A stretch of 12,982 nucleotides of DNA from Schlesneria sp. (lineage in GTDB: Bacteria > Planctomycetota > Planctomycetia > Planctomycetales > Planctomycetaceae). Positions 1 through 12,982 of this stretch are shown here, in pieces (the first letter of the stretch is position 1; every line of letters begins with the position of its first letter). A program made the position numbers and the translations under genes. Under the pieces are notes generated by a model. That model saw only the letters and a program-made list of their open reading frames with translations, had not been told where the DNA came from and searched no databases. The DNA lies in contig JANXOO010001202.1 in assembly GCA_025353525.1 (NCBI GenBank), forward strand, positions 1 to 12,982, written 5' to 3'.

Positions 1-1116
1 TTTCGTCCGCAGCGGGTGACCCCCAAGCCGGTCGTGGAAGGCCTCGAAACGGCCAAAGTTGTCGGCAAGAAGGGTGAAGAGATCTGGATCGACAAGTACG
101 GCCGCGTGCGTGTCCAGTTCTTCTGGGATCGCAAGGGGAAAGAGGACGAGAAGAGCACCTGCTGGGTTCGCGTAGCGCAGATCTCGGCGGGAAAACGCTG
201 GGGGGCCTATTTCTGGCCTCGAATCGGCCAGGAAGTGCTCGTGGCATTTGTCGAGGGTGATCCCGATCAACCGGTGATTGTCGGTTCTGTCTATAACAGC
301 CAGCAAATGCCCCCGTACCTGGGCGATGGACCCGACGAAAAGCACGCGGTCGACCCGAATGTCAGCGGAATCAAAACGAATTCGACAAAAGGTGGCGACG
401 GCTTCAACGAATTGCGATTCAATGACACCAAAGACAAAGAGCAGGTTTTCATCCATGCCGAAAAAGATATGGACGTTAAAGTCAAAAGTGTGATGCGAGA
501 GCACATACTCGGCAACCGAAACATCATCGTCGGAGACGAGGGGCAGTCGGATGACGACAAGGGGAATCTTTTTCAGCTGGTCCACAAGAAATGGATGCTC
601 AAGACGCTGCACGATAAAGTAGAAAAGGTAGAAGGGGATCACTACCACACTGTCGGAAATGGTGACGCTGACGGCGGCAACTCGCATTTGTATGTCAAAA
701 AGGATCGGCTCGAACAGATTGGCGGTGATCAGAACCTGACAATCGATGGAGCCCGGAATGAAAGTGTGGGGGGCCAGTATTCGTTGACGGCCGATCAGTG
801 GGATACAAAAATCCAGAAAACAGCCGCACTTGAAGTGACGAATTCACTACATATCAAAGCAATGTCCATCGTTATCGAGGCGGACATGCAATTATCCCTG
901 AAGGTCGGCGGTAATTTTGTGGATATCTCCGTAGCCGGAGTCGCGATCAACGGCATGCCGATGCTCATGCTGAATAGTGGTGGCGCGGCGGGTGCAGGGA
1001 TACCTCCCCAACCCGCAAGCCCGACAAAACCGCAAAGTGCCGAGAATGGCAAACCACCGAATGACTTCTTTAAAAAGGCCGATGATTCCAAGACCGGCAG
1101 CAAGTCTTGCGACTGA
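1..1116 (+). CDS. vgrG: Type VI secretion spike protein VgrG, C-terminal part (5' end outside window)
   Basis: Trimeric VgrG (TssI) forms the membrane-piercing spike of the T6SS and carries PAAR and effectors at its tip. The frame is open from base 1 (FRPQRVTPKPVV...), so the GTG at 16 is an internal valine and not a start; the N-terminal gp27-like half lies outside the window. The 371 visible residues hold the gp5-like OB-fold with the family's signature stretches: IDKYGRVRVQFFWDR near residue 33, CWVRVAQ near 54, YFWPRIGQEVLV near 70 and GDPDQPVIVGSVYN at about 86-99. Then follows a beta-helix needle with GDHYHTVGNGD, QIGGDQNLTIDG and VGGQYSL-type short repeats, and MPMLMLNSGG, a usual end of the needle. 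The last ~50 residues (from about 325) are a Pro/Lys/Ser-rich tail ending in SKSCD, without a recognisable effector domain. It is followed after 61 bases by the FHA-adaptor gene, the usual place for a VgrG-linked chaperone. Family assignment is certain; cargo is unknown. Confidence 0.95.
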   Translation, partial: FRPQRVTPKPVVEGLETAKVVGKKGEEIWIDKYGRVRVQFFWDRKGKEDEKSTCWVRVAQISAGKRWGAYFWPRIGQEVLVAFVEGDPDQPVIVGSVYNSQQMPPYLGDGPDEKHAVDPNVSGIKTNSTKGGDGFNELRFNDTKDKEQVFIHAEKDMDVKVKSVMREHILGNRNIIVGDEGQSDDDKGNLFQLVHKKWMLKTLHDKVEKVEGDHYHTVGNGDADGGNSHLYVKKDRLEQIGGDQNLTIDGARNESVGGQYSLTADQWDTKIQKTAALEVTNSLHIKAMSIVIEADMQLSLKVGGNFVDISVAGVAINGMPMLMLNSGGAAGAGIPPQPASPTKPQSAENGKPPNDFFKKADDSKTGSKSCD

Positions 1117-1177
1117 AGGTGCGAAAATCCGATTCGAAAAACGGTTACGATTCTGTCGATAAAACCCGGGATTGAAT

Positions 1178-2149
1178 ATGTCACAGCGTCTGGTACTGGA
1201 AGTCATCAGCGGACCTCACAATGGCCAGGTGGCTTCGGTGAGGGATGGCGAATCACTTGTTGTCGGGCGTTTGCCCGAATGCGGTCTGTCTTTTCCTCAG
1301 GACCTGACAGTCTCGCGCCAGCACTTCCGGATCGAGTTCGAATCCCGTAATTGCCGCATCGTGCATCTCAGTCAGACGGGTGAAACACTCGTGAACGGCA
1401 ATTCGGTTAGCACTTATGAATTGCGAACAGGTGACGAAATTGAATTTGGGTCTGGAAACAGAATTCGGATTTCGATCGACGATGGTCGTAAGGGCCTCGC
1501 CTCGCCGACGGTCGCTCCCGTCAAATCGGGCCAGCCCGAATCTGAGGCAGGCACACGCATCGTGGCCTCGACGGCAAGCTGCGGCTGGAATCTGTATGAA
1601 AGTGCCGAAGATCAACCGGGACACGATATGTTGTTGAAGGTACTGATCGGGACTCGTCAATTGTATTCGATTTTTGATTTTCGACGGATCGGAACTTCCG
1701 TAGCGGCTAATCTGGTCGATCCGGGTCATCTTTTTGAATGGATCGAGCCACCACTTCGCGATCAGTTTTCACCCATCCTGTTTTCAAACGCGGCAAACCC
1801 CGAGATGGCAGATGCGATCAATGCTGCGTGGGGAAAAGACGGGCTCGTCTGCTTCGGTTCGACGCTGCAGGGTGACGATTTGTTGACGCACTGGCGCAAG
1901 GCGATCGGAATGGCGGCTGACAAGCCGGGAGACGGGATGACCGCATATTTCTGGCCCTCGATTCTGAACATGATTTTAACGTGCCAAACCGCCGCCAAAG
2001 TGGCTACCCTACTCGATGGACTGACCTGGCTGTTCGTTGAATCGCCGGAATCTCCCGGCCAATGGCGACTTTTCACCAAAGACGATTTTTCGTCCGAATT
2101 GAAGAAGGCCGGATTGGCGACTGTCCCCGCGACCAAAACCTCGTCATGA
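1178..2149 (+). CDS. FHA domain - DUF4123 (Tap/TEC-like T6SS adaptor) fusion protein
   Basis: 323 residues, cytoplasmic, no signal peptide or membrane segment. Residues 1-105 are a forkhead-associated (FHA) phosphothreonine-binding domain: GR at 30-31, SRQH at 46-49 and NG at 73-74 are the conserved phosphopeptide-binding positions and all are intact. After a ~40-residue polar linker, residues about 160-300 resemble DUF4123, with the usual opening QLYSIFDFRR, a central WGKDGLVCFGS segment and AYFWPSILNMIL, comparable to the FRFYDPRVL region of the family. DUF4123 proteins (Tap/TEC) are known to load effectors onto VgrG and are encoded beside vgrG, as here. The FHA fusion suggests that loading or docking depends on a phosphorylated partner, in line with the known PpkA/Fha control of some T6SS; no kinase lies in the window. 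The start at ATG 1178 is preferred over an in-frame TTG at 1172; neither has a strong Shine-Dalgarno sequence. The FHA call is very firm, DUF4123 moderately firm. Confidence 0.85.
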   Translation: MSQRLVLEVISGPHNGQVASVRDGESLVVGRLPECGLSFPQDLTVSRQHFRIEFESRNCRIVHLSQTGETLVNGNSVSTYELRTGDEIEFGSGNRIRISIDDGRKGLASPTVAPVKSGQPESEAGTRIVASTASCGWNLYESAEDQPGHDMLLKVLIGTRQLYSIFDFRRIGTSVAANLVDPGHLFEWIEPPLRDQFSPILFSNAANPEMADAINAAWGKDGLVCFGSTLQGDDLLTHWRKAIGMAADKPGDGMTAYFWPSILNMILTCQTAAKVATLLDGLTWLFVESPESPGQWRLFTKDDFSSELKKAGLATVPATKTSS

Positions 2150-2333: not shown

Positions 2334-2627
2334 ATGCCACCTGCTGCTCGAATACTCGACATGCACGTTTGCCCAATGCAGACGCCGGCGGTGGTGCCGA
2401 TTCCCCATGTTGGCGGACCGGTCTGCATCGGATACCCGATGGCTCTCATCGAATTCATGCCTGCGGCACGTGTTGGTGATATGCTGGTTTGCGTCGGGCC
2501 GCCCGATGTCATCGCGATGGGTTCATTCACCGTTCTGATTGGCGGACAACCGGCAGCACGGATCGGAGACCTCACCGCTCACGGCGGTTCGATTGTCATG
2601 GGAGCCCCGACGGTCATGATTGGCTGA
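2334..2627 (+). CDS. PAAR domain protein, T6SS spike tip
   Basis: 97 residues, the usual size of a stand-alone PAAR protein. PAAR proteins fold into a zinc-bound cone that caps VgrG, sharpens the spike and can link effectors to it. The motif is repeated three times: PAARILDMHVCP at 3-14, PAARVGDMLVC at 43-53 and PAARIGDLTAHGG at 73-85. H11, H25 (PHVGG), C53 and H83 are the likely zinc ligands (three His, one Cys), all present. Gly-rich turns with GSFTVLIGG (63-71) and GAPTVMIG at the C-terminus complete the family pattern. There is no N- or C-terminal extension, so any cargo would be bound non-covalently or through VgrG. It lies between the DUF4123 adaptor gene and, 36 bases on, the first giant protein. 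The start is set by a strong Shine-Dalgarno site. Confidence 0.95.
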   Translation: MPPAARILDMHVCPMQTPAVVPIPHVGGPVCIGYPMALIEFMPAARVGDMLVCVGPPDVIAMGSFTVLIGGQPAARIGDLTAHGGSIVMGAPTVMIG

Positions 2628-2663: not shown

Positions 2664-5600
2664 ATGAGTCCTGGTAAACCCCCTTCCCGTGACTGGCGCG
2701 CGCTTCCTCCAACGCGGTCTGTCTACGCTCGCGAATGGCGCGGGACGGCGAGCGGTGGCGGATCAAAGTACTCGCGCGGATTCAAGTTGCGAGTCGTTGG
2801 TTTCAGTCTGATCCTGTTGATGTCGTTAATCGCCATTCTGCTACTGGTTCCTGTCGCAGGAGGAATGCCCAAAACACAGGTCCTGACCTTCGGGATCGGT
2901 GCGTACGGCGGGCAAACGAATCCGCGCGGAATCGTGCCGATCAATCCGTTTGGCGAACAGGATGCAGGTGCCTTCAAAATCCTTCATGATCGCAACGAAG
3001 CGCAGTTCCTCGAAGTTCGTGAGGAAGTCAACGCTCTCAATGGCGACCAGTTTCTCGATTTCTGGGCGTCCGAACGAAGTTCCGACAAACTCGCACGACA
3101 AAACCTGATCGTCTATTGCACGATGCACGGTCTCGTTCAACCGTCTGGTGAAGTCAGGCTGTTTGCCATCGATGCCACACCGGAAACTCGCGGCAAACTG
3201 ATTCCGCTCAAGGATCTTGTCGCCCTGTTGCAGGAATGCCGTGCGCGACGGGTCCTGCTGGTACTCGACGCCGCACGACTTGAATCGAGCTGGCGTCTGG
3301 GAATGTTGTGCAATGACATTGCCGAACAGGTCGCGAGTGACTGGCCGGCCCACGAGTCAAAACGAAATCCGGAATCGGGTTCCGAGACTGACAAGGTTGC
3401 AATCCTGCTCGCCGCGAGTCCCGGTCAGCAAAGCTGGCCAAAGGAAGGCCGGTCAGCGTTGGCTCATTTTCTGATTGAAGGACTTTTAGGAGCCGCCGAC
3501 GGTTGGGAGGCGACCGACGGACGATCGCAAGATTCCGGGCGACACGATCAGCGGATTGGCTTGCATGAATTGACCGAATACGCACGTCAACAAATCGCCG
3601 ACTGGAGCCGCGACCGCTATGGGGCTCTGCAAACAGTTGAATTGCTGGGAAACACAGCCGATTTCGATTTGGCAAGTACCTCGAAACCGGTTTCGGTCGG
3701 GTCCGTCGTCAAGATTGCCACCGCCAAAAACAAGACCAAGGCCATCGACGCGGCAGTGAGTGAGAACGCAACCAGCGCAGACACGGCATCGACCGAGACA
3801 CCGCCAGAAGTCAAGTGGGACATTCAGTTGGCTCAGGAGTTATGGAAGACGCGAGACCAGTGGCGCGACGAAACCGGAAAAACGCGTCCCGCCGTTCGCC
3901 GGCAATCCCCGCTTGCATGGCGATCGTTCGAAGCCAATCTTGCCCTGGCCGAGTCCCTGCAACGCGGCGGACAAGAAAAACTCGGTGTCATGGCACTTCA
4001 TCAGGCCGATTCCATCGGCAAGAGATTGACCGAGCAGTCGTCGGCTGTGGCGGGTCTGAGCTGGAATCCCAAAGACGCTCGAATGCTCAGGAACTGGGGC
4101 TTCTTCGTCGACACAAATCTACTGACACGTGAAGCGATCGTCGCTGCAGGAAAAAGCCTGCTGGCCGACCTCGCGAACTCGTCAGCACCGCCATCGGACG
4201 CGACTGCAGCACCTGCCTCTACAACATCGACCCAAAACATCTCTGATCTTGACCCGACAGTCGTTCGCGAATGGATTGTTCAGGAATTACGACGCGAGTC
4301 GTCCGCGAAAGATCGGGAGCAACTGCGACGAATCCTGGGACGATTGCCCGCGACCCCCGATGCGTTGTTTTTGAGCGATATCCTGGCGAACAAATCAGAT
4401 GATCTTGCCACAGGTTTATCCGACTTGCTGCCCGAATTCTTTGAATTGCATGATCGGTATCGCCGGTTGGCCGTACGCATTCCCGAGTCGTGGAGTCTCG
4501 TCAAAGACGACATTCGGGCAGGTGTTCGGGCATTGAGTGCTGCCGAACGGTGGATGTTCGCTCCCGGATCACGCTATCCCGAAGTCAAGGAATGGTTGCG
4601 AAAGGGAGCTGAAATTGCCGCCAGAGCCGAGCGGAATGCGGACAGGTATCGTGAAGCCATCGGAATCTGGTTTGACCTGCTGACGGAATTGCCATCGGTC
4701 GCGGAATGGGTCGCCGCGCGGGCCAACGACGACGATCGTAACCTGACATGGATGCGATCGGCGGCAAAACAGTGGTCGCTGCAACAGCAGGAAGAACGCT
4801 CTGATGTCTCGGGGTTACTCGAGACATGGCCGGAAAAGCCCAAACGCCTGACAGATGTCGAACGCAGATTACTGATACAGTTTGTCGACGCCCAGCGTCT
4901 GAAGTCCGTTTTGTTTGCAAGTGCCAGCCGGCGCGATTCCGCCGACAGACTCGACAAACTCGTGAGCGAAGCGACCGCTCACCGGCGCGATTTCTGGAAG
5001 GAATTTGCGCAATTCTTTTCACCAGGGGAACTCAAAACACCGTCCGCGACGATTTGCCGTGAATCGTTTCGGTTGCTCGAACAGCCATGGTTACCGCTCG
5101 AAGACCGAATCCGACTCGACAAATTACAACGCGAGATCGAGTCGCGGCTGGTTCGCTTGGCGACGGGCGATTCGGCGAAGCTGAAAACGGCATCGAATTC
5201 AAGCGGTTCGATCACCGGGAAAACGACGATGAAAGGGGGCGTGTGGCAAGGATTCTGGGCCACGGCAACATTGGATCTGTTTGCGAAGAACGCGGGCGAA
5301 ACTGCCGAACTGTGGAAGGAATGGGATCGGCTGGTCGAACTATCCCCCGTTTCGGATGCCACGGCGAGTTCAGGTGCGACCGAACGAGGCGATTTGCGCA
5401 AGCGGCGAGCCGACCTGGGTCAGAAGATTCGCGAACAATGGATTCGACCGGTTACTGATGCTGCTGATCTTCCCGGTATTCACCTGCTCGCAGCGGTTCA
5501 GGAACCGTTTCTTGTACCGGATCGTGATCCCGATGCATTGATCCGAGCCGAGCGGCAACGTCAATTCGGGGCATGGCTAGTGATGTTTTCTGACGGTTGG

Positions 5601-7916
5601 CGCAATCGTTCCTCGATCGCGGCGACCGCCAGCGGTCTCGCCTGGTCAGATCTGGCAAAGGCAGCGGATGAACTGGCACAAGGGTTGGTCGGAAATGCCG
5701 AACGGATCGATTCGCCGAACCGTACAACGCCTGCAGCGTCGCCGAAGATTCAGGAAGAGTCACGGCCAACGTTAGATGCCGAGCGGAAGGGGCGATTGAC
5801 GTTCACAGTAGCGGGAAACTCGGGAGGTGGTCCTGCGACGCATGTCACACTGACATCGGAACACGTGCGTCTGGTGGAAGGAAACAGACCGATCCCGATC
5901 GATCGGGGACTTTCCCGACCGATTCCTGCGGGTGGAAAGATGACGTTCGACGTGATGCTTGCCGAGTCGATCGATTCAACACAAACCGTGATGGTTATGT
6001 TGACCGAAGCGGACGGCTATCCACTCGATTTCAGGCAGATTCTTGTCAGTCCGCCTTTCGATCCCAAACAGTGGCGAGTCGAGTTTTCAGAAGCAACAAC
6101 ACAAAATATTCTGGAAACTGTCGGCCAATCGGCCGGTGTCAGGATTTTCCTGCCGCCGTCAGCACCCGTTTCGCTGCGGGCGACTCTGGTTCGCCCCGAG
6201 AAAGATGTGACGCCCTCGGCATCAATCGCCATTTACCGCCTTCTTGACAACAGCAAGCCGCCACAACGAGAACTGCTCGGAACAATCACCGATTTCAAGC
6301 TCGAGTCCGGCCGGGTTCGTTCGCCAATCGTTTGGGACTTTCCCGAAGCGCCCAAAGAAAAATCTGTGGCGAAAGAGATTCCTGTGCCCAGTCCTGCTAA
6401 AGAATTGAGTTACGGACTGGTGTTCCAGATCACTCCCGAAGGCCAATCGGCTCTGGAATATACTGTTCGTCCGACTTTCTATTCCGCGATGAATTTCGTG
6501 GGCGAGCCGAAACCGGTGATCGCCAATGACCGTTTGAATCTGGCTCTCGCCCGACCCGTCGTTTCGAAAGACGGACTTCTGCCCAAAAAGATTCCGGTTG
6601 AACTCCACGTCCCCGATGCCATCCGAGCCTCGATGACAGACTTCACGCTCAGTGGATCGGTTGAACAGGGGCAACAATTGACGCTGTCATTTCCGTTGCC
6701 GAAAAACTGGAGTGAACTGGCGCGCGACCGACAATTGACGATCACACTCGATGTCGCCGGGTTGCCACACGCCTATGTGTGGCGTATCGAGTCATCAGGA
6801 ATTGTGACCGCGATCACAGGCCAACCGCCGAACCTGGCGATCCGGATGTTGATGCCGCCACCTGAAGGGAAGAATCCGCCGCGATTGAAGCCCGTCATAC
6901 TCGCTGGAAAAGAACCTGTGGGCCTTCAGTTTCAGGTGAACGCCACCGAACTTGACCGCACCGACGGTCGCGGCGACTGGCTTCTGAAGTACACGGTCCA
7001 TCGCGAATCAGTTCAGGGTCTCGATCCGACACCCCTGCAGAATTCGTGGCAAATGGTCTCTTCTGTACAACGCCACGTTTTGCTCGAAGGCATTCAGGGT
7101 GGGGTCTGGAAGGTTCAAACTCAGGCGGCAGACTATGAAAAGGTCGAACCCGACTCGGAAATTCGGGGTTTGTCGGGGCGTTTCCAGGTTCGGGCTGACA
7201 TCATTCGCGGGGACGAACCGAATCCGGTGGCGACGACAAAGATCCGGTTTGCAATCGATGACTTGAAGCCACCTGATCTGAAAGTGACCTGGCCGAACAG
7301 CAGCCCGAAATCAACCGAAAAAGATCTGTCATTTCAAATAACCGCCAGTGATCCTGAATCGGGTGTTCAACGCATCGCTTACGGGTTCGACCTGAATGGC
7401 GACGGAGTTTTGCAAGAGCCGAAAGAGCTGCTGGGTGAGACCCCTCCCGATCCAACGGGTGGAGTCGGTCTCGACGAAACCAGACTTGACCTGAAGGTGA
7501 CAATTCCCAAGTCGAAGCTTCCAAAACTGGCAAAAGACAAGGACGAAGAGGCGAAAGACCTGATCGTTCTGGCGATGAACGGAGTTGGCGTTGTGAAATC
7601 AACGGTCGAATCCGTTATGTTTCGCAAACCACCCAGGTCCGTAATTCCGATGAAAGAGCCAACCTGTTCGCTGGTCGTCAAACTGAACGTCACGAAGAAA
7701 CGGACGGCGGTGGTCGAGATCACGGGGCCGAGCGTTGGCAAGGAAACGACCGAGGACGACAGTGTTTCGTTTAGTAACCTCAAACCCGGTCGATATATAA
7801 TCAAGGTATCGGTGACATACATCAGGACGGGAGATATTGAAACGGGCGAGCAAACTGTAGATATCAAAGCGGACGAAAACAAAACTGTCGACGTCAAATT
7901 GTCGCCAAAGCGATAG
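2664..7916 (+). CDS. Giant single-pass membrane protein with catalytically dead caspase-like (peptidase C14) domain and Ig-like C-terminus
   Basis: 1750 residues. A basic, Pro-rich cytoplasmic N-terminus (1-42) precedes one membrane helix at about 43-65; the positive-inside rule puts the rest outside the cytoplasm. Residues about 71-335 follow the caspase/C14 fold in order: FGIGAYGG (core strand), PFGEQDAGAF (usually GAxxDA), YCTMHG with the catalytic-type H155, VLLVLDAAR where the nucleophile Cys should be but is A204, ILLAASPGQQSW, AHFLIEGLLGAADG, IGLHELTEYA. A low-complexity Ala/Thr/Ser linker follows (340-380), then ELWKTRDQW (392-400) and a long helical, Trp/Arg/Glu-rich region to about 1030. 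From about 1042 on come beta-rich, probably Ig-like domains, a near-EF-hand loop DLNGDGVLQEPKE (1576-1588) and a C-terminal carboxypeptidase-regulatory/PEGA-like domain (about 1668-1750). An in-frame TGA 12 bases upstream fixes the start at or after 2664. It follows the PAAR gene by 36 bases and is paralogous to the last gene of the window. The true role is unknown: an envelope scaffold of the T6SS is favoured, an effector is the alternative. Confidence 0.85.
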   Translation: MSPGKPPSRDWRALPPTRSVYAREWRGTASGGGSKYSRGFKLRVVGFSLILLMSLIAILLLVPVAGGMPKTQVLTFGIGAYGGQTNPRGIVPINPFGEQDAGAFKILHDRNEAQFLEVREEVNALNGDQFLDFWASERSSDKLARQNLIVYCTMHGLVQPSGEVRLFAIDATPETRGKLIPLKDLVALLQECRARRVLLVLDAARLESSWRLGMLCNDIAEQVASDWPAHESKRNPESGSETDKVAILLAASPGQQSWPKEGRSALAHFLIEGLLGAADGWEATDGRSQDSGRHDQRIGLHELTEYARQQIADWSRDRYGALQTVELLGNTADFDLASTSKPVSVGSVVKIATAKNKTKAIDAAVSENATSADTASTETPPEVKWDIQLAQELWKTRDQWRDETGKTRPAVRRQSPLAWRSFEANLALAESLQRGGQEKLGVMALHQADSIGKRLTEQSSAVAGLSWNPKDARMLRNWGFFVDTNLLTREAIVAAGKSLLADLANSSAPPSDATAAPASTTSTQNISDLDPTVVREWIVQELRRESSAKDREQLRRILGRLPATPDALFLSDILANKSDDLATGLSDLLPEFFELHDRYRRLAVRIPESWSLVKDDIRAGVRALSAAERWMFAPGSRYPEVKEWLRKGAEIAARAERNADRYREAIGIWFDLLTELPSVAEWVAARANDDDRNLTWMRSAAKQWSLQQQEERSDVSGLLETWPEKPKRLTDVERRLLIQFVDAQRLKSVLFASASRRDSADRLDKLVSEATAHRRDFWKEFAQFFSPGELKTPSATICRESFRLLEQPWLPLEDRIRLDKLQREIESRLVRLATGDSAKLKTASNSSGSITGKTTMKGGVWQGFWATATLDLFAKNAGETAELWKEWDRLVELSPVSDATASSGATERGDLRKRRADLGQKIREQWIRPVTDAADLPGIHLLAAVQEPFLVPDRDPDALIRAERQRQFGAWLVMFSDGWRNRSSIAATASGLAWSDLAKAADELAQGLVGNAERIDSPNRTTPAASPKIQEESRPTLDAERKGRLTFTVAGNSGGGPATHVTLTSEHVRLVEGNRPIPIDRGLSRPIPAGGKMTFDVMLAESIDSTQTVMVMLTEADGYPLDFRQILVSPPFDPKQWRVEFSEATTQNILETVGQSAGVRIFLPPSAPVSLRATLVRPEKDVTPSASIAIYRLLDNSKPPQRELLGTITDFKLESGRVRSPIVWDFPEAPKEKSVAKEIPVPSPAKELSYGLVFQITPEGQSALEYTVRPTFYSAMNFVGEPKPVIANDRLNLALARPVVSKDGLLPKKIPVELHVPDAIRASMTDFTLSGSVEQGQQLTLSFPLPKNWSELARDRQLTITLDVAGLPHAYVWRIESSGIVTAITGQPPNLAIRMLMPPPEGKNPPRLKPVILAGKEPVGLQFQVNATELDRTDGRGDWLLKYTVHRESVQGLDPTPLQNSWQMVSSVQRHVLLEGIQGGVWKVQTQAADYEKVEPDSEIRGLSGRFQVRADIIRGDEPNPVATTKIRFAIDDLKPPDLKVTWPNSSPKSTEKDLSFQITASDPESGVQRIAYGFDLNGDGVLQEPKELLGETPPDPTGGVGLDETRLDLKVTIPKSKLPKLAKDKDEEAKDLIVLAMNGVGVVKSTVESVMFRKPPRSVIPMKEPTCSLVVKLNVTKKRTAVVEITGPSVGKETTEDDSVSFSNLKPGRYIIKVSVTYIRTGDIETGEQTVDIKADENKTVDVKLSPKR

Positions 7917-7962
7917 GCAGACGCGAATACCGAATCAACAGTCCCGGTACACAGTACTGGTC

Positions 7963-7966
7963 GGAG
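7963..7966 (+). promoter_or_regulatory. Ribosome-binding site deciding the start of the TssM-like gene
   Basis: GGAG at 7963-7966 lies six bases before ATG 7973 but only three before the in-frame TTG at 7970. The spacing favours ATG 7973, which removes one residue from the longest possible frame. Confidence 0.6.
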
Positions 7967-7972
7967 TCATTG

Positions 7973-9664
7973 ATGATCGAGTCGTTTTTTTTGAGCATTG
8001 CCCGTGTTCTGAACGCGGGGCACCGGGTCATCTACGCCGCACTCAGGTGGCTGGGGCTGCTTTTCGGGATGATCCCCAAGGCCGGGCGTTTTCCGCCAAT
8101 CGTCTACAGCATCATTCATTACACGTTTATTATCTCGGTGACGCTGGTTCTTGCGTATTACAGCACGTACTGGATTCCGGAATCCCGGGTGACGTGGCCG
8201 TACTGGTTTGTCAGGCGTTTTTATGTCGCGATTGAATTCCTTCTTTTTTACCTGTTCGTCAGGTTGTTGATCGTCGGAATCCAGCTTTTCCTTTCGCGAG
8301 ATCTGTCGGAATTCGAAGATATCAATCGTGCCTGGGAAGCCGGGCTCGACGCCTTGGCTCGAGAAGGATTCGACCTGCAATGGTTGCCGGTATTTGTCAT
8401 CAGCGGTGCGACCCCGGACCAAAGTAAAAGTTTGCTGGAAAGCTCGCGAATTACCTGGAAAGTGAACGGCGGTACCGAAGATTCCCGGAACGCCGCGCTG
8501 ACATTTCACGCATGCGATGAGGCGCTGTTCATTTGTCTGAACGATGTCGGTGCCATGTCACGTCAACTTAGAAAAGTTGCCTCACGCGGTGCAGGCGGAA
8601 GCGCGGGTTCGGCGGCAGCATCAGGGCGTTCGGATGCAGGTATTCCTGCCACGATGCGGCCCGATCAGCTTCGTGCCGCCGTTGAACAAACGCGGCGGCC
8701 TGATGCCGCAGACAACCCCGCCGGGCGAACACTGGCACCTGGCGCTGCTGCGGCAGCGATCGCGGCAGCCAACTCACCAGCCTCGCACGGTCGCGCGGGC
8801 GAGACGATTCGTCCCGGTGCGATTGCAGATGCGAAGGGTTCGAGCACTGCACCCGTTGCCCCCGCGAGCGCTCTCGAAAAACTTTCCAAAGAAGAACTGC
8901 AACTGAATCGGCGGCGGCTGGAATACTTCTGCCAGTTGCTGGTCGAGCAGCGCGGCAGTTACTGTCCCTTGAACGGACTGCTTCAAGTCATTCCGCTCCG
9001 CTGGACCCAAAGCAACGCCTATGAGCCGTTGATGGCCGCGGTGGGACACGACGTTCAGTCGATGCACGACAGTTTGCACTTGCAGTTTCCGGTCGTCTGC
9101 TTGCACGTCGGATTGGAAGAATTGACCGGACTTGCCGAATTCATCGAACGGGGTAAAGAACTCGATTCGCGATTCCGTGATTCACGAGCGGGATCACGAT
9201 TTCCAGGCGGACTGGCGATCGATGACAAGACGGCATCGTGGGTTATCGAACGCGGTATGATCTGGTTTCGCGACTGGGTCTACGCCGAATTTGCCAAAAA
9301 CCTGGCCAGCCCCAAAAACCGGCAGCTCTATCAGTTTCTATGCGCATTGTCGCTACGTCGCGAGCGCCTGGTGCGCGAATTGAAAACGGCCGTTGGCGAT
9401 TCGCGGCAACCCGTACGGCTGACAGGATGTTACTTCAGTGCGACGGGTCCCGATGCGCCACGGCAGGCATTTGTACAAGGGGTCATGCAGCGGCTGATGA
9501 GTGAACAAAACGATGTTGCCTGGCAGCCGGAATGGCGGTCTCGAGATCGTCGTTATTTGTGGCTCGCAACTGTGTTGTCGTTCGTCACGCTCGCTGTATT
9601 TTCGATTGATATTTATTTCATCTGGACGATATGGGAACAATCATCAAACGTTGCAGCGGGATGA
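7973..9664 (+). CDS. Short TssM/IcmF-like T6SS inner-membrane protein lacking the periplasmic domain
   Basis: 563 residues. TssM (IcmF) is the inner-membrane part of the T6SS membrane complex, normally about 1100-1200 residues with two membrane helices, a cytoplasmic NTPase-like domain, a third helix and a large periplasmic domain that binds TssJ. Here helices lie at about 44-64 and 84-107, the cytoplasmic domain at 108-525 and a third helix at about 528-553, after which only ~10 residues remain. Family landmarks are in the right order: LPVFVISG (138-145, P-loop strand), NGGTEDSRNA (165-174, like GGTRNCDWW), DEALFICLNDVG (182-193, like DEAVLLDTAG), PLNGLLQVIP (332-341, like PINGVLLTVS), FPVVCLHVGLEEL (372-384, like PVYVLFTKCDL) and VRLTGCYFSAT (481-491, like RGVYFTSAT). 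All nucleotide motifs are eroded: Walker A is GATPDQSKS (K152 kept, glycines lost), the Walker B Asp is N190 and the TKxD motif is gone. An Ala/Gly/Pro-rich insert fills 203-300. It lies between the two giant paralogues. Confidence 0.8.
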   Translation: MIESFFLSIARVLNAGHRVIYAALRWLGLLFGMIPKAGRFPPIVYSIIHYTFIISVTLVLAYYSTYWIPESRVTWPYWFVRRFYVAIEFLLFYLFVRLLIVGIQLFLSRDLSEFEDINRAWEAGLDALAREGFDLQWLPVFVISGATPDQSKSLLESSRITWKVNGGTEDSRNAALTFHACDEALFICLNDVGAMSRQLRKVASRGAGGSAGSAAASGRSDAGIPATMRPDQLRAAVEQTRRPDAADNPAGRTLAPGAAAAAIAAANSPASHGRAGETIRPGAIADAKGSSTAPVAPASALEKLSKEELQLNRRRLEYFCQLLVEQRGSYCPLNGLLQVIPLRWTQSNAYEPLMAAVGHDVQSMHDSLHLQFPVVCLHVGLEELTGLAEFIERGKELDSRFRDSRAGSRFPGGLAIDDKTASWVIERGMIWFRDWVYAEFAKNLASPKNRQLYQFLCALSLRRERLVRELKTAVGDSRQPVRLTGCYFSATGPDAPRQAFVQGVMQRLMSEQNDVAWQPEWRSRDRRYLWLATVLSFVTLAVFSIDIYFIWTIWEQSSNVAAG

Positions 9665-9705
9665 CATTTTGTACCTGCATTTGACCGACGTTTGAAATCG
9701 CTTTC

Positions 9706-9710
9706 AGGAG
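9706..9710 (+). promoter_or_regulatory. Shine-Dalgarno site of the second giant gene
   Basis: AGGAG at 9706-9710, 11 bases before ATG 9722, somewhat long spacing but the only candidate. It lies in the 57-base gap after the TssM-like stop. An in-frame TTG at 9692 lies upstream of the site, so it is an unlikely start. Confidence 0.5.
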
Positions 9711-9721
9711 CATCAGAGACC

Positions 9722-12700
9722 ATGCCGCCCGCATCAGGCCCTTCATGGCGCGGATCAGCCGACAAACCCGGTAAAGGAGCCGGCCGGTCCTGGCGTCGAC
9801 CGGGGACGGGCGCAACAGCCACGTGGAACTCGCGATCACGCTGGATGCAAACCATCCTCAGTACACTATCGATGCTGTGCGCGTTCGCCGCAATCGTGAT
9901 CTTTATCTTTCTGGTGTTCGTACCGGGATGCAACCGGACGGATTTTGCAGTGCTGGCTCCTGCGCCGTACACCAATGCCGCCATGCAACCTCAACCGTTC
10001 GGCAAGCGGGATGCCGACGATTTCCGCGATCGTTTTTCTGCCGACGCATTCATGCCAATGCTCGATGTGAAACCGGTGACGGGTGATACGAAGTCCGTCC
10101 GCAAAAAGCTGGCAACTCCTTCGCGATCACGCAAGACGACTGTCATTTTTGTAACGGGATTGGCCGGACAAACAGCCGACGGACCTGTCCTCTATCGGAC
10201 CGAATCGGGCCCGGACGATACCGACGCAGAGGTGGCCGAATCAAACGGGTACCTTCCGCTGGAAAAGATCTGGAAGTTACTGGCAGACCTGCCTCCAGAA
10301 CAAAAGAAGATCGTTGCAATCGACCTGGGCAGTGGACCGATCGATTGGCGCTGGGGCCAGTTTTTTCATCCGCAACTGGGATCGATGTCGGAAAAAGGCG
10401 ATGCCAACGGGCCGCTTCACGATGTCCTTGCAAAAATCCCCAATTTGGCTGTTTTGGCCTCGGCGGCACCGGGCGAAGTCAGTTGGGGCAGTCCGATTCT
10501 CAAGCAGTCGGTCTTCGCTCACTTTTTGATACGCGGACTCGCGGGTGAAGCCGACGGAAGTGCGGGCGCGGCCCCGGATCGTCGCGTGACATTGGACGAA
10601 TTGCATCAGTATGTCCTCACGCGGACGAATCATTGGGTGGCTCAAAATCGTGATCCTCGGGGTCAGCATCCGCAACTCCTTGTCTCCGCCGAATCACGCG
10701 ACCGCATGAAAAGTGTTCTGGTGACAGAAGTCAAAGGCAAAGTCGCACCGCCAGCAATCGATCCACCCAGGCCAATTGACGGCAACCAGGTCAAAAAGAT
10801 TGAAGAAATGTGGTCGGCTCGCGACGACTGGAGCAAGACCGAACCCGAACAGTGGCATCCGGTTGCATGGCGGCAGTTTCTGGAAAACCTGCGACGGGCC
10901 GAACAGTGGTGGCTGGTCGGCCAGCCCGACGAAATGGTTCCCAATCTGTTCGCCGCAGAAAAAGCGATTCAGACACTGAAGTCGCGTCAGGAGACACGCA
11001 ATCGTTTTACGGCAACCGGGCTGTTACGTCGCGACCTGTCCGAGGCATTTTCCGGCAAGGATCTTGATGTTCCCGAACAACAGCTTGCACAGGCGTTAGG
11101 TCAGTACGCACCAAAGGCGATGGCCAAATCAGAAATCGAGCAATCAGTGGCATTGCGTAAATTCGCCGAGGTTCAGGCGTGGCACGGGTTCCGCAGTCGG
11201 CTTTGGACGGGGACACTTGTTTCCGACGCCGATCGCGACCGACGAAACGCAGAAGATTTGTTATTTGTCGGTGGGCCAAGTGAGCTCGAATCGTCGGGCA
11301 ACGCACGCAAATCGGCGACGGCCGGGTTCGAACAGGCTCAACAGATCATCGGCGAATTGTCGGAACTGATCCGATTGCATAATCGTTTGCTGGCCGAATT
11401 GCCCGATCTGGCGTGGTGGGCCGCACAACGATTGCCGGACGAGATGATTTCAAAACCGGCCAACGAATCGAAGCGATCGCGCCTGATGACCCGATATTCA
11501 GAACTGATCGACGACGAAAAATTCCGCCCCCCTGTTTTTTCACAACAGGAAAAGGGGCTGACGAGCGAATTGAATGATCCGATCGAACTTCAGGTCGTCG
11601 AGGTGCAACTGCTGCTGTTGTTCGAGCAGACTCGAATGCTCGGTCGGCTGATCGATCGCGAGCTGGACCCCGCAGCGCAGTCATTTGCACTACTACCGGA
11701 ATGGCGAGCTGAACGCGAGTTGGTCAAACGGTCACTGACCGATCCGGATCGCGGTCTGGATGCCATCGCAAAGCGACTGATTCGAAACGCGGACGGATTG
11801 ATCGGTTCATCCGACTCCGAGTCGAAAGGTGCATCGGGTGCCGAACAGGGACAGACGCAACATTATCACTGGCTGCGCCTGCGGAATGCGTTGCAGTGGT
11901 CCGGATTACCCGCCAAATCGCGTCGCGGACTGTTCAATGCGCTGGAAGAAAGCGGTCGAACACTGCATGCCAATGCGCAAAAAGTTCCTGTTGCCAAGGC
12001 AGCCGACTGGAGCGGCGACGACTGGTCAGGTGTCGACGGCTGCTGGCAGTCATTGTGGGCGCTTCAGATGCTCTCGATCGGCCTGCCGGAAACAATGGAC
12101 AAACGCTGGGTCGACTGGAAAAACGCCTGGCTCGACGGCAAAAAAAGGGAGCGGCAACTGGTCGACCTCGGAGCCTCGGTACGCAAGGAATTTCGCAATC
12201 GGGCCCGTTTGGCCAATCGCACGCTGGAAGAATCAGATCAGCTCGACGGTGCAATGAGGACGTTGCTGGTGGCCGAACGAGCGGCCCGCTCGATGCACGG
12301 GTACGACGCCGTATTATTCAATGTCGATCACGATCCGGTTCGTCAGAGAAACGAGTTCGATCTCGGTGCGATCTGCCTCGTACAGGCCGAACGGTACCTC
12401 GACGATTTCTGGGGAAACGTTGCGGGGGGCGAACCGTGGTACGTGAGGGCCGTTGATCGCTGTTTGCGCGGAGCTGTCCGCCAGCAGGAAATGCTCGGTG
12501 CAAGGGTGCTCAAGACAGTTCGTGACAAAATTGCGTTTCAACTGGACGAGCGACAAAAGGCGGGCCTCAGGATCGCCTCGGTCGATGGTCGCATCGACCT
12601 GAGTCTGGCCAACCAGCGCCCGACAAAAGTGACTGTTGCAGTCGATGCAGGGGTTCCACCCGGTACGGCGGCCCTGTGGCTGGAAGAGGATGTCCCGGAT

Positions 12701-12982
12701 GCCGACAGGATTCTGAATTTCACTCCGGACAGCCGAAAGTCCGTCACATCGAAATCATCGATGGCCGAATTCACAATCCACAAACAGAAGTCGTTTGCCG
12801 ATGGCCAGTGCGATGAAATTCGTGTTCAACCGCGATTGCTGTTCCGGTCGCGGTACTGGAACGAGAAAGAAGGCGAAATCCGTGTTAATCCGTGCTCGCC
12901 CAGGTCCATTCATCGCGAGTTTCAATCGACGCCAAATACCGGGGGGATCGTCGTTCGCGGGGCCGATCGGCGCGACACGATG
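9722..12982 (+). CDS. Second giant single-pass pseudo-caspase protein, paralogue of the first (3' end outside window)
   Basis: 1087 residues are visible and the frame is still open at the right edge. A basic, Pro/Gly-rich N-terminus (1-41, e.g. RSWRRPG) precedes one membrane helix at about 44-67 ending VFVPGC, so the rest is predicted to be exported. Residues about 75-325 keep the scaffold of a C14 caspase-like domain: QPFGKRDADDF (91-101), VIFVTGLAG (141-149), KKIVAIDLGSG (195-205), LAVLASAAPG (242-251), SVFAHFLIRGLAGEADG (263-279) and VTLDELHQYV (289-298). The catalytic His position reads Leu/Gly and the Cys position is G203, so it cannot be a cysteine protease. EMWSARDDW (362-370), AELPDLAWWAAQR (near 558), CWQSLWALQM (near 774) and a beta-rich segment from about 957 match ELWKTRDQW, TELPSVAEWVAAR, VWQGFWATATL and the Ig-like start of the first giant protein, in the same order and at similar spacing. 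Function is unknown; its place after the TssM-like gene suggests a role in the same envelope complex. Confidence 0.85.
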   Translation, partial: MPPASGPSWRGSADKPGKGAGRSWRRPGTGATATWNSRSRWMQTILSTLSMLCAFAAIVIFIFLVFVPGCNRTDFAVLAPAPYTNAAMQPQPFGKRDADDFRDRFSADAFMPMLDVKPVTGDTKSVRKKLATPSRSRKTTVIFVTGLAGQTADGPVLYRTESGPDDTDAEVAESNGYLPLEKIWKLLADLPPEQKKIVAIDLGSGPIDWRWGQFFHPQLGSMSEKGDANGPLHDVLAKIPNLAVLASAAPGEVSWGSPILKQSVFAHFLIRGLAGEADGSAGAAPDRRVTLDELHQYVLTRTNHWVAQNRDPRGQHPQLLVSAESRDRMKSVLVTEVKGKVAPPAIDPPRPIDGNQVKKIEEMWSARDDWSKTEPEQWHPVAWRQFLENLRRAEQWWLVGQPDEMVPNLFAAEKAIQTLKSRQETRNRFTATGLLRRDLSEAFSGKDLDVPEQQLAQALGQYAPKAMAKSEIEQSVALRKFAEVQAWHGFRSRLWTGTLVSDADRDRRNAEDLLFVGGPSELESSGNARKSATAGFEQAQQIIGELSELIRLHNRLLAELPDLAWWAAQRLPDEMISKPANESKRSRLMTRYSELIDDEKFRPPVFSQQEKGLTSELNDPIELQVVEVQLLLLFEQTRMLGRLIDRELDPAAQSFALLPEWRAERELVKRSLTDPDRGLDAIAKRLIRNADGLIGSSDSESKGASGAEQGQTQHYHWLRLRNALQWSGLPAKSRRGLFNALEESGRTLHANAQKVPVAKAADWSGDDWSGVDGCWQSLWALQMLSIGLPETMDKRWVDWKNAWLDGKKRERQLVDLGASVRKEFRNRARLANRTLEESDQLDGAMRTLLVAERAARSMHGYDAVLFNVDHDPVRQRNEFDLGAICLVQAERYLDDFWGNVAGGEPWYVRAVDRCLRGAVRQQEMLGARVLKTVRDKIAFQLDERQKAGLRIASVDGRIDLSLANQRPTKVTVAVDAGVPPGTAALWLEEDVPDADRILNFTPDSRKSVTSKSSMAEFTIHKQKSFADGQCDEIRVQPRLLFRSRYWNEKEGEIRVNPCSPRSIHREFQSTPNTGGIVVRGADRRDTM

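Follow-up and report, generated by a model that had tools for sequence, protein, structure and literature searches.

How does a type VI secretion system (T6SS) cross the cell envelope when its TssM has no periplasmic domain, the part regarded as central to the complex that carries the machine across? The question is raised by a stretch of 12,982 nucleotides from the planctomycete Schlesneria sp. (GenBank assembly GCA_025353525.1, contig JANXOO010001202.1), hereafter the window, which is the entire contig C949 of a draft genome (6.28 Mb, 1,559 contigs, 89% complete). The window holds six genes, all on the forward strand, which code for VgrG, an FHA-domain adaptor, a PAAR protein, a giant protein that we call A, a short TssM-like protein (TssM*) and a second giant, B. 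An initial annotation, made from the DNA letters, had proposed that A and B each expose more than 1,000 residues outside the cytoplasm and together rebuild an envelope channel beside a TssM that lacks its periplasmic part. The co-directional gene set with VgrG, PAAR and adaptor that it described is confirmed by reading frames and family matches. There appears to be a class-wide planctomycete T6SS variant, in a large group of bacteria from soil and water, in which a cut-down TssM stands beside two giant anchored proteins.

The short protein is a real, conserved TssM. Its N-terminal domain matches the IcmF-related family PF14331 (E = 5.7e-11; 42.7 bits against a cut-off of 25), and hydropathy places three membrane helices at about residues 44, 86 and 530, with the stop codon 16 residues past the third. 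No large periplasmic domain (PF06761, PF06744) was found in it, only these 16 residues following helix 3. Alignment with hhalign to the canonical TssM of one class genome (G102, locus L065) sets the cytoplasmic domain and the third helix on canonical residues 320–586 (E = 0.0017, with a probability of only 15.6). The three-helix pattern is kept in most relatives; in a few, a helix escapes prediction or an additional one appears. The protein database lists 35 TssM* proteins, our own included; the 29 that are longer than 500 residues (our own and 28 relatives) end 4–18 residues past their last predicted helix. The frames in the loci that we fetched agree: 33 of 34 end 0–53 residues past the last predicted helix, two long ones (762 and 956 residues) among them, and the remaining frame is cut by the fetched stretch. 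These loci were picked by hand rather than at random, and one frame (G136c) is a cut copy of another. Given this agreement, we rejected an assembly artefact or pseudogene as the cause of the truncation. A TssM split into two genes was likewise rejected, for recognisable domains, on the PF06744 and PF06761 searches. The missing periplasmic part that the initial annotation had read from a single gene thus recurs across the class.

The order tssK-tssL-tssM* is found in many relatives, as in ordinary T6SS loci, and the DotU and TssK families were confirmed in one of them. On the window contig, as in G100 and G021, the closest relatives, tssM* has neither tssL nor tssK next to it; the window's own genome carries TssC on contigs C1522 and C1394 and TssL on contig C821. 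A P-loop-like stretch of the TssM* cytoplasmic domain (window 8384–8446, residues 138–158 from the ATG) is degenerate in 24 aligned planctomycete proteins; the canonical TssM P-loop motif is seen in G102. A TssM* sequence profile found no relative in the PDB. The TssM-like protein had no match in the plasmid collection, and a plasmid-borne locus was rejected on that ground. In G103 and G024, and perhaps in G017 and G111, TssM* may carry an extra membrane helix near its C-terminus.

We surveyed 158 genomes of the window's class, which are not independent of one another, so that Fisher values overstate significance. Each of the five family searches (TssC, TssL, TssJ, PF06744 and PF06761) gave a hit in E. 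coli, one of 14 control genomes. The sheath protein TssC (PF05943) was found in 62 class genomes. TssM* profile matches occur in 59, of which 54 are TssC-positive and five TssC-negative (G050, G105, G127, G136 and G149), and TssL (PF09850) occurs in 63, comprising 59 of the 62 TssC-positive genomes and four others (G102, G105, G136 and G149). A complete canonical tssJLM set was sought in the T6SS-bearing genomes and not found: TssL is there, and the TssJ lipoprotein (PF12790) was detected in 0 of the 158 class genomes. The TssM periplasmic domain PF06744 matched one genome of the 158, G102, which has no TssC match; PF06761 passed its cut-off in G102 as well, with one weak match in G046, so that neither family exceeded its cut-off in any TssC-positive class genome. 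Annotated loci of G100, G021 and G152 contain TssA, B, C, E, F and G, Hcp, VgrG and ClpV, a contractile core. The loss of the TssM periplasmic part is class-wide, wherever TssM was read in the class.

The matches in G102 lie on a 9.9-kb contig (C97, L065) with a canonical TssM of 1,357 residues and a TssL of 431 residues whose end looks OmpA-like by eye; this contig may reflect contamination or a separate acquisition. G136, a single-contig genome with a completeness rating of 100% and no TssC match (loci L051, L060 and L061), carries TssM* beside TssL and a short giant of 730 residues, plus a second TssM* frame of 956 residues, and may hold an envelope module without a sheath. In a sample of 352 genomes from the phylum, TssM* matched 13, all within the window's own class; this search covered that phylum alone and scored only 3 candidates in each genome, a shallow depth that lends weak support to the absence of TssM* from the rest of the phylum. 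The named protein relatives of A, B and TssM* are planctomycetes; Schlesneria paludicola is named for all three, Planctellipticum variicoloris for A and Caulifigura coniformis for B.

The giants follow the sheath gene through the class. A profile built on A matches 65 of the 158 genomes. Frames of at least 1,000 residues come from 54 of the 62 genomes with TssC; the 96 without it have none, and 11 of these show shorter frames that match. A closer look at the eight TssC-positive genomes that this profile missed revealed giants in five. A more sensitive N-terminal profile yields frames of at least 1,000 residues in 61 of 62 TssC-positive against 1 of 96 TssC-negative genomes, among the matches listed. 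The sole TssC-negative frame of giant length in that list (G022:C1:735317-736414) has 1,576 residues and a caspase-like match. The list reaches to about E 1e-26; 62 of the 96 TssC-negative genomes have some match to this profile, because it also picks up other, smaller caspase-like proteins, and the frames of their weaker matches lie beyond the list. Up to 3 candidates per genome were examined with the A profile, all of them listed, and up to 11 with the N-terminal profile, so giants could be missed; sizes are stop-to-stop lengths, and second giants just under 1,000 residues (for example in G070 and G133) are not counted. Two or more giants are listed for 42 genomes. A giant lies within 5 kb of 21 of the 34 TssM* frames, several in the order A-TssM*-B as in the window, and about 50 kb away in G016, G027 and G090; these nearest-giant distances include fragments and the 730-residue giant of G136. 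The gene arrangement of the window is more than chance, as it recurs in many divergent genomes. A search of the genome contigs for related loci yielded one locus, L002. The three genes belong to a T6SS, as the initial annotation had it, and the wide occurrence of giants without a T6SS that would have spoken against its proposal is not seen. Among the T6SS-linked envelope proteins that we found and that could cross the periplasm, A and B are the most widely conserved.

BLASTP (E = 2e-16) and the comparison of profiles (E = 2e-56 across 753 columns) show A and B to be paralogues. They share a plan of a Trp-Arg-rich tail, one membrane helix, a caspase-like domain and a helical region (about residues 385–1010 in A), after which A ends in immunoglobulin (Ig)-like domains. 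Hydropathy reveals one N-terminal membrane segment in A and one, in two overlapping windows, in B. The Pfam scan gave no match over cut-off for A and none at all for B, and an A sequence profile found a single PDB match (E = 0.6), none worth naming. The AlphaFold model of A (residues 555–1750) is helical, then beta (predicted local distance difference test, pLDDT, 77; predicted template modelling score, pTM, 0.44, so that domain placement is unsure); that of B (residues 1–1086) contains the membrane helix, the caspase-like domain, the helical region and a beta domain (pLDDT 82, pTM 0.79). Sixteen relatives are listed for A besides itself, and 33 of the 35 listed for B are 1,530–1,853 residues long. 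Most full-length B relatives carry a vWA domain, a part that the contig end removes from the window's B. The predicted extracytoplasmic part amounts to about 1,500–1,700 residues in each protein, judged for B from its full-length relatives, in keeping with the large single-pass proteins initially proposed. Beyond that proposal, sequence comparison and models indicate the paralogy of A and B, a caspase-like domain in both and vWA in full-length B relatives.

We compared 40 giants (43 hits less one 224-residue fragment and two truncated duplicates that came from overlapping stretches). In nearly all of them a mostly positively charged tail precedes an N-terminal membrane helix, and 13 carry the metal ion-dependent adhesion site (MIDAS) motif of vWA domains. 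Trp followed by Arg or Lys is present in 34 of 39 tails, against a mean of 13.3 in shuffled tails (standard deviation 2.8, maximum 23 in 2,000 shuffles), and 54 of 68 tail Trp residues have Arg or Lys next to them, against 18% in the giant bodies. One tail without a predicted membrane helix was dropped from this count, and a few run upstream of the likely start. Since the sequences are related, the enrichment is conservation and not a probability. We assign a caspase fold to A and B mainly on the VIA alignment, a weak NCBIfam match in A (NF047832, E = 1.7e-5, far below the family cut-off) and the A–B alignment; the caspase hits in Foldseek began at E = 0.0016, and the single hit at or below E = 0.001 was an unrelated DNA glycosylase. 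Unlike the metacaspases and paracaspases of the C14 fold, none of 35 aligned giants has the catalytic Cys two places after the conserved Asp (three have a Cys one place off), and the catalytic His is absent from its place in 20 and present in 15, the expected places being those of the C14 motif. Active proteases were rejected for A and B because of the lost Cys.

Table 1. Features of the window, with positions in the 12,982-nucleotide stretch.
Feature	Position	Strand	Evidence
VgrG (TssI), C-terminal part, 5' open	1..1116	+	TIGR03361 E 4.7e-75; PF04717, PF22178
FHA-domain adaptor, weak DUF4123 match	1172..2149	+	FHA E 5.4e-12; PF13503 E 0.0024, under its cut-off
PAAR spike-tip protein	2334..2627	+	PF05488 E 2.5e-21
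Giant A, 1,750 residues: tail, one membrane helix, pseudo-caspase, helical region, Ig-like domains	2664..7916	+	
A cytoplasmic tail with two Trp-Arg motifs (WRA, residues 11–13; WRG, residues 25–27)	2664..2792	+	Translation
A membrane helix, residues 44–62	2793..2849	+	Hydropathy 3.01
A pseudo-caspase domain, about residues 72–330	2877..3653	+	Weak NF047832; alignment to B, whose model shows a caspase fold
A C-terminal beta-sandwich (Ig/FnIII-like) region, about residues 1028–1750	5745..7913	+	
TssM*: cytoplasmic domain and three membrane helices	Frame 7970..9664 (564 residues), ATG 7973	+	PF14331
TssM* third membrane helix, then 16 residues and stop	9557..9613	+	Hydropathy
Giant B, at least 1,086 residues, 3' open at contig end	9692/9722..12982	+	
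B cytoplasmic tail with Trp-Arg motifs (W9-R-G, W24-R-R)	9722..9838	+	
B membrane helix, model residues 40–66	9839..9919	+	Hydropathy and model
B pseudo-caspase domain, residues 68–340	9923..10741	+	
B helical region, residues 354–946	10781..12559	+	Model, most blocks pLDDT >80; fold barely tested by structure comparison
B beta domain, directly before the position of vWA in full-length relatives	12566..12901	+	Model

The genes of the window are closely spaced (PAAR stop at 2627 to A start at 2664; A stop at 7916 to the TssM* ATG at 7973; TssM* stop at 9664 to the B ATG at 9722). A kinase gene directly follows B in G021 (PF00069) and in G100 (by similarity only), and next to it in both stands a third giant of about 1,780–1,830 residues with WD40 repeats (a Pfam match in G021, L054:3768-9116; similarity in G100) and, by eye, a signal-peptide-like start. 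Kinase-like genes also occur in the loci of G016, G027, G090 and G103, and FHA genes in many such loci. In several planctomycete T6SS loci (G110, G016, G065 and G004), two tssC-like genes stand in tandem, and a third and more distant homologue of tssC is often there as well.

If the TssM arch and TssJ have both been lost, another component has to cross the periplasm. We estimate a probability of roughly 0.6 that A and B replace them. TssL and TssM*, whose genes and gene order are observed, would form an inner-membrane base that docks the baseplate, with A and B as putative single-pass neighbours anchored beside it and their Trp-Arg tails possibly touching the TssL/TssM/TssK base. The pseudo-caspase domains would act as a non-catalytic scaffold on the outer side of the inner membrane, the helical stalks would span the periplasm, and the Ig-like heads of A and the vWA heads of B might reach the peptidoglycan or the outer membrane. 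The planctomycete periplasm can be greatly enlarged, according to the accessible part of one report (PMC5394234), and longer struts would therefore be favoured. That all of this amounts to a class-wide T6SS subtype, its trans-envelope channel a hetero-oligomer of two giant pseudo-caspase proteins set by Trp-Arg tails on a minimal TssL-TssM base and its vWA and Ig-like heads coupling outer-envelope contact to firing, is in our judgement an evenly balanced proposition.

Several observations weigh against the replacement. In 19 of the 61 positive genomes a single giant of at least 1,000 residues is listed, and the fragmented genome G111 is without a listed giant. G136 pairs TssM*, TssL and its 730-residue giant with no TssC match, and 13 of the 34 TssM* frames have no giant within 5 kb, with the proviso that flanks were limited and one of the 13 is the cut copy. 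Profile comparison detected no sequence similarity between the giants and a canonical TssM; the outer parts of A and B gave no profile match to the TssM periplasmic domain, and no TssM chain is among the structure matches listed, which leaves room for that fold. Because no such similarity was detected, the replacement is a functional one, as we infer it. The giant–TssLM contact, the channel and the outer-membrane attachment are likewise inferred, and the nearby kinase and FHA genes suit a signalling role equally well. Of the rebuilt channel put forward in the initial annotation, T6SS membership, the TssM truncation, a TssJ that was not found and the co-occurrence of the genes stand, and the replacement itself is left as a functional reading that shares the evidence with a sensing role.

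In that sensing role, the main rival, A and B would be contact sensors rather than structural parts: their vWA and Ig-like heads would respond to a neighbour or to envelope stress, and Ser/Thr kinase and FHA proteins would relay the signal that triggers assembly of a T6SS held by TssL and the short TssM only. The kinase, kinase-like and FHA genes described above fit this, as does the MIDAS motif of the 13 giants, and pseudo-enzyme domains often act as signalling scaffolds. We nonetheless consider it unlikely: it leaves no known protein to span the periplasm in genomes without TssJ and the TssM periplasmic domain, and among the annotated loci only G100 and G021 have a kinase immediately downstream of B, whereas giants are found in nearly all T6SS genomes. 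Structural and sensing roles could be true together.

A diverged, unrecognised TssM periplasmic domain or another protein might instead cross the envelope, with A and B as accessories. Extreme divergence can escape profile searches, structure comparison has barely tested the giants' helical part, and the WD40 giant near two clusters might be one such protein. This seems improbable to us, however, since PF06744 and PF06761 were found in the E. coli control and in no TssC-positive class genome, and since the WD40 giant is confined to G100 and G021 among annotated loci while the co-occurrence of A and B is far wider. We give very little credence to the idea that the giants work as T6SS-dependent adhesins on the surface or as exported effectors, encoded near envelope genes by chance. 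They do adjoin vgrG and PAAR in the window and are large and multidomain, with vWA and Ig-like parts, but the membrane helix after a mostly positive tail is kept in nearly all of them, Pfam scans recognised no toxin domain, the caspase Cys is gone from its place throughout, and giants flank TssM* in the order A-TssM*-B. Replacement of the arch and TssJ by A and B is the reading that we prefer.

A class that keeps its T6SS while losing the TssM periplasmic domain and TssJ would show that this part is replaceable, and would provide a natural experiment on the tasks that the envelope complex has to perform; it would also offer an inactive caspase fold recruited to a plausible structural job. The variant could escape T6SS detection tools that depend on TssJ or a full-length TssM. 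As far as the accessible parts of the reports go, T6SS genes were noted in Rhodopirellula baltica (PMC2660368), many T6SS-related genes were found only in R. baltica among three genomes (PMC5394234), and T6SS has been mentioned in freshwater Planctomycetes (PMC6461901). We found no description of a planctomycete T6SS without the TssM periplasmic domain in the open-licence literature, in an incomplete search of titles and abstract starts. The planctomycete T6SS, which we found only briefly mentioned so far, becomes directly testable.

The variant resembles the canonical T6SS-i complex in its TssL (DotU), in the TssM cytoplasmic domain with three helices, in the tssK-tssL-tssM order of its relatives and in its baseplate and sheath genes and ClpV; it differs in that TssJ and the TssM periplasmic domain were not found and two giant pseudo-caspase proteins stand beside TssM. 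In type IVB secretion an IcmF/DotU pair forms the inner-membrane module, and IcmF-like and DotU-like proteins occur here too, but accompanied by sheath and baseplate genes. The envelope proteins of T6SS-iii are TssN–TssR. T6SS-iii of Bacteroidetes and T6SS-iv of Amoebophilus are also variants with altered or missing TssJLM; the part of a review available to us distinguishes four T6SS subtypes and describes none with the present layout (PMC10433429). In contrast to these two, TssL, the short TssM and ClpV are present in relatives' loci, which sets the variant apart from a T6SS-iv defined by the lack of TssJLM and ClpV. A further parallel is the non-canonical membrane complex of Acinetobacter, in which, according to the accessible part of the report, TssJ is likewise missing and lineage-specific envelope proteins, TsmK and others, compensate (PMC10564176). 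A functional C-terminal linker of TssM is described there (PMC10564176), whereas the present TssM lacks the entire part beyond helix 3 and its candidate partners run to about 1,600–1,750 residues.

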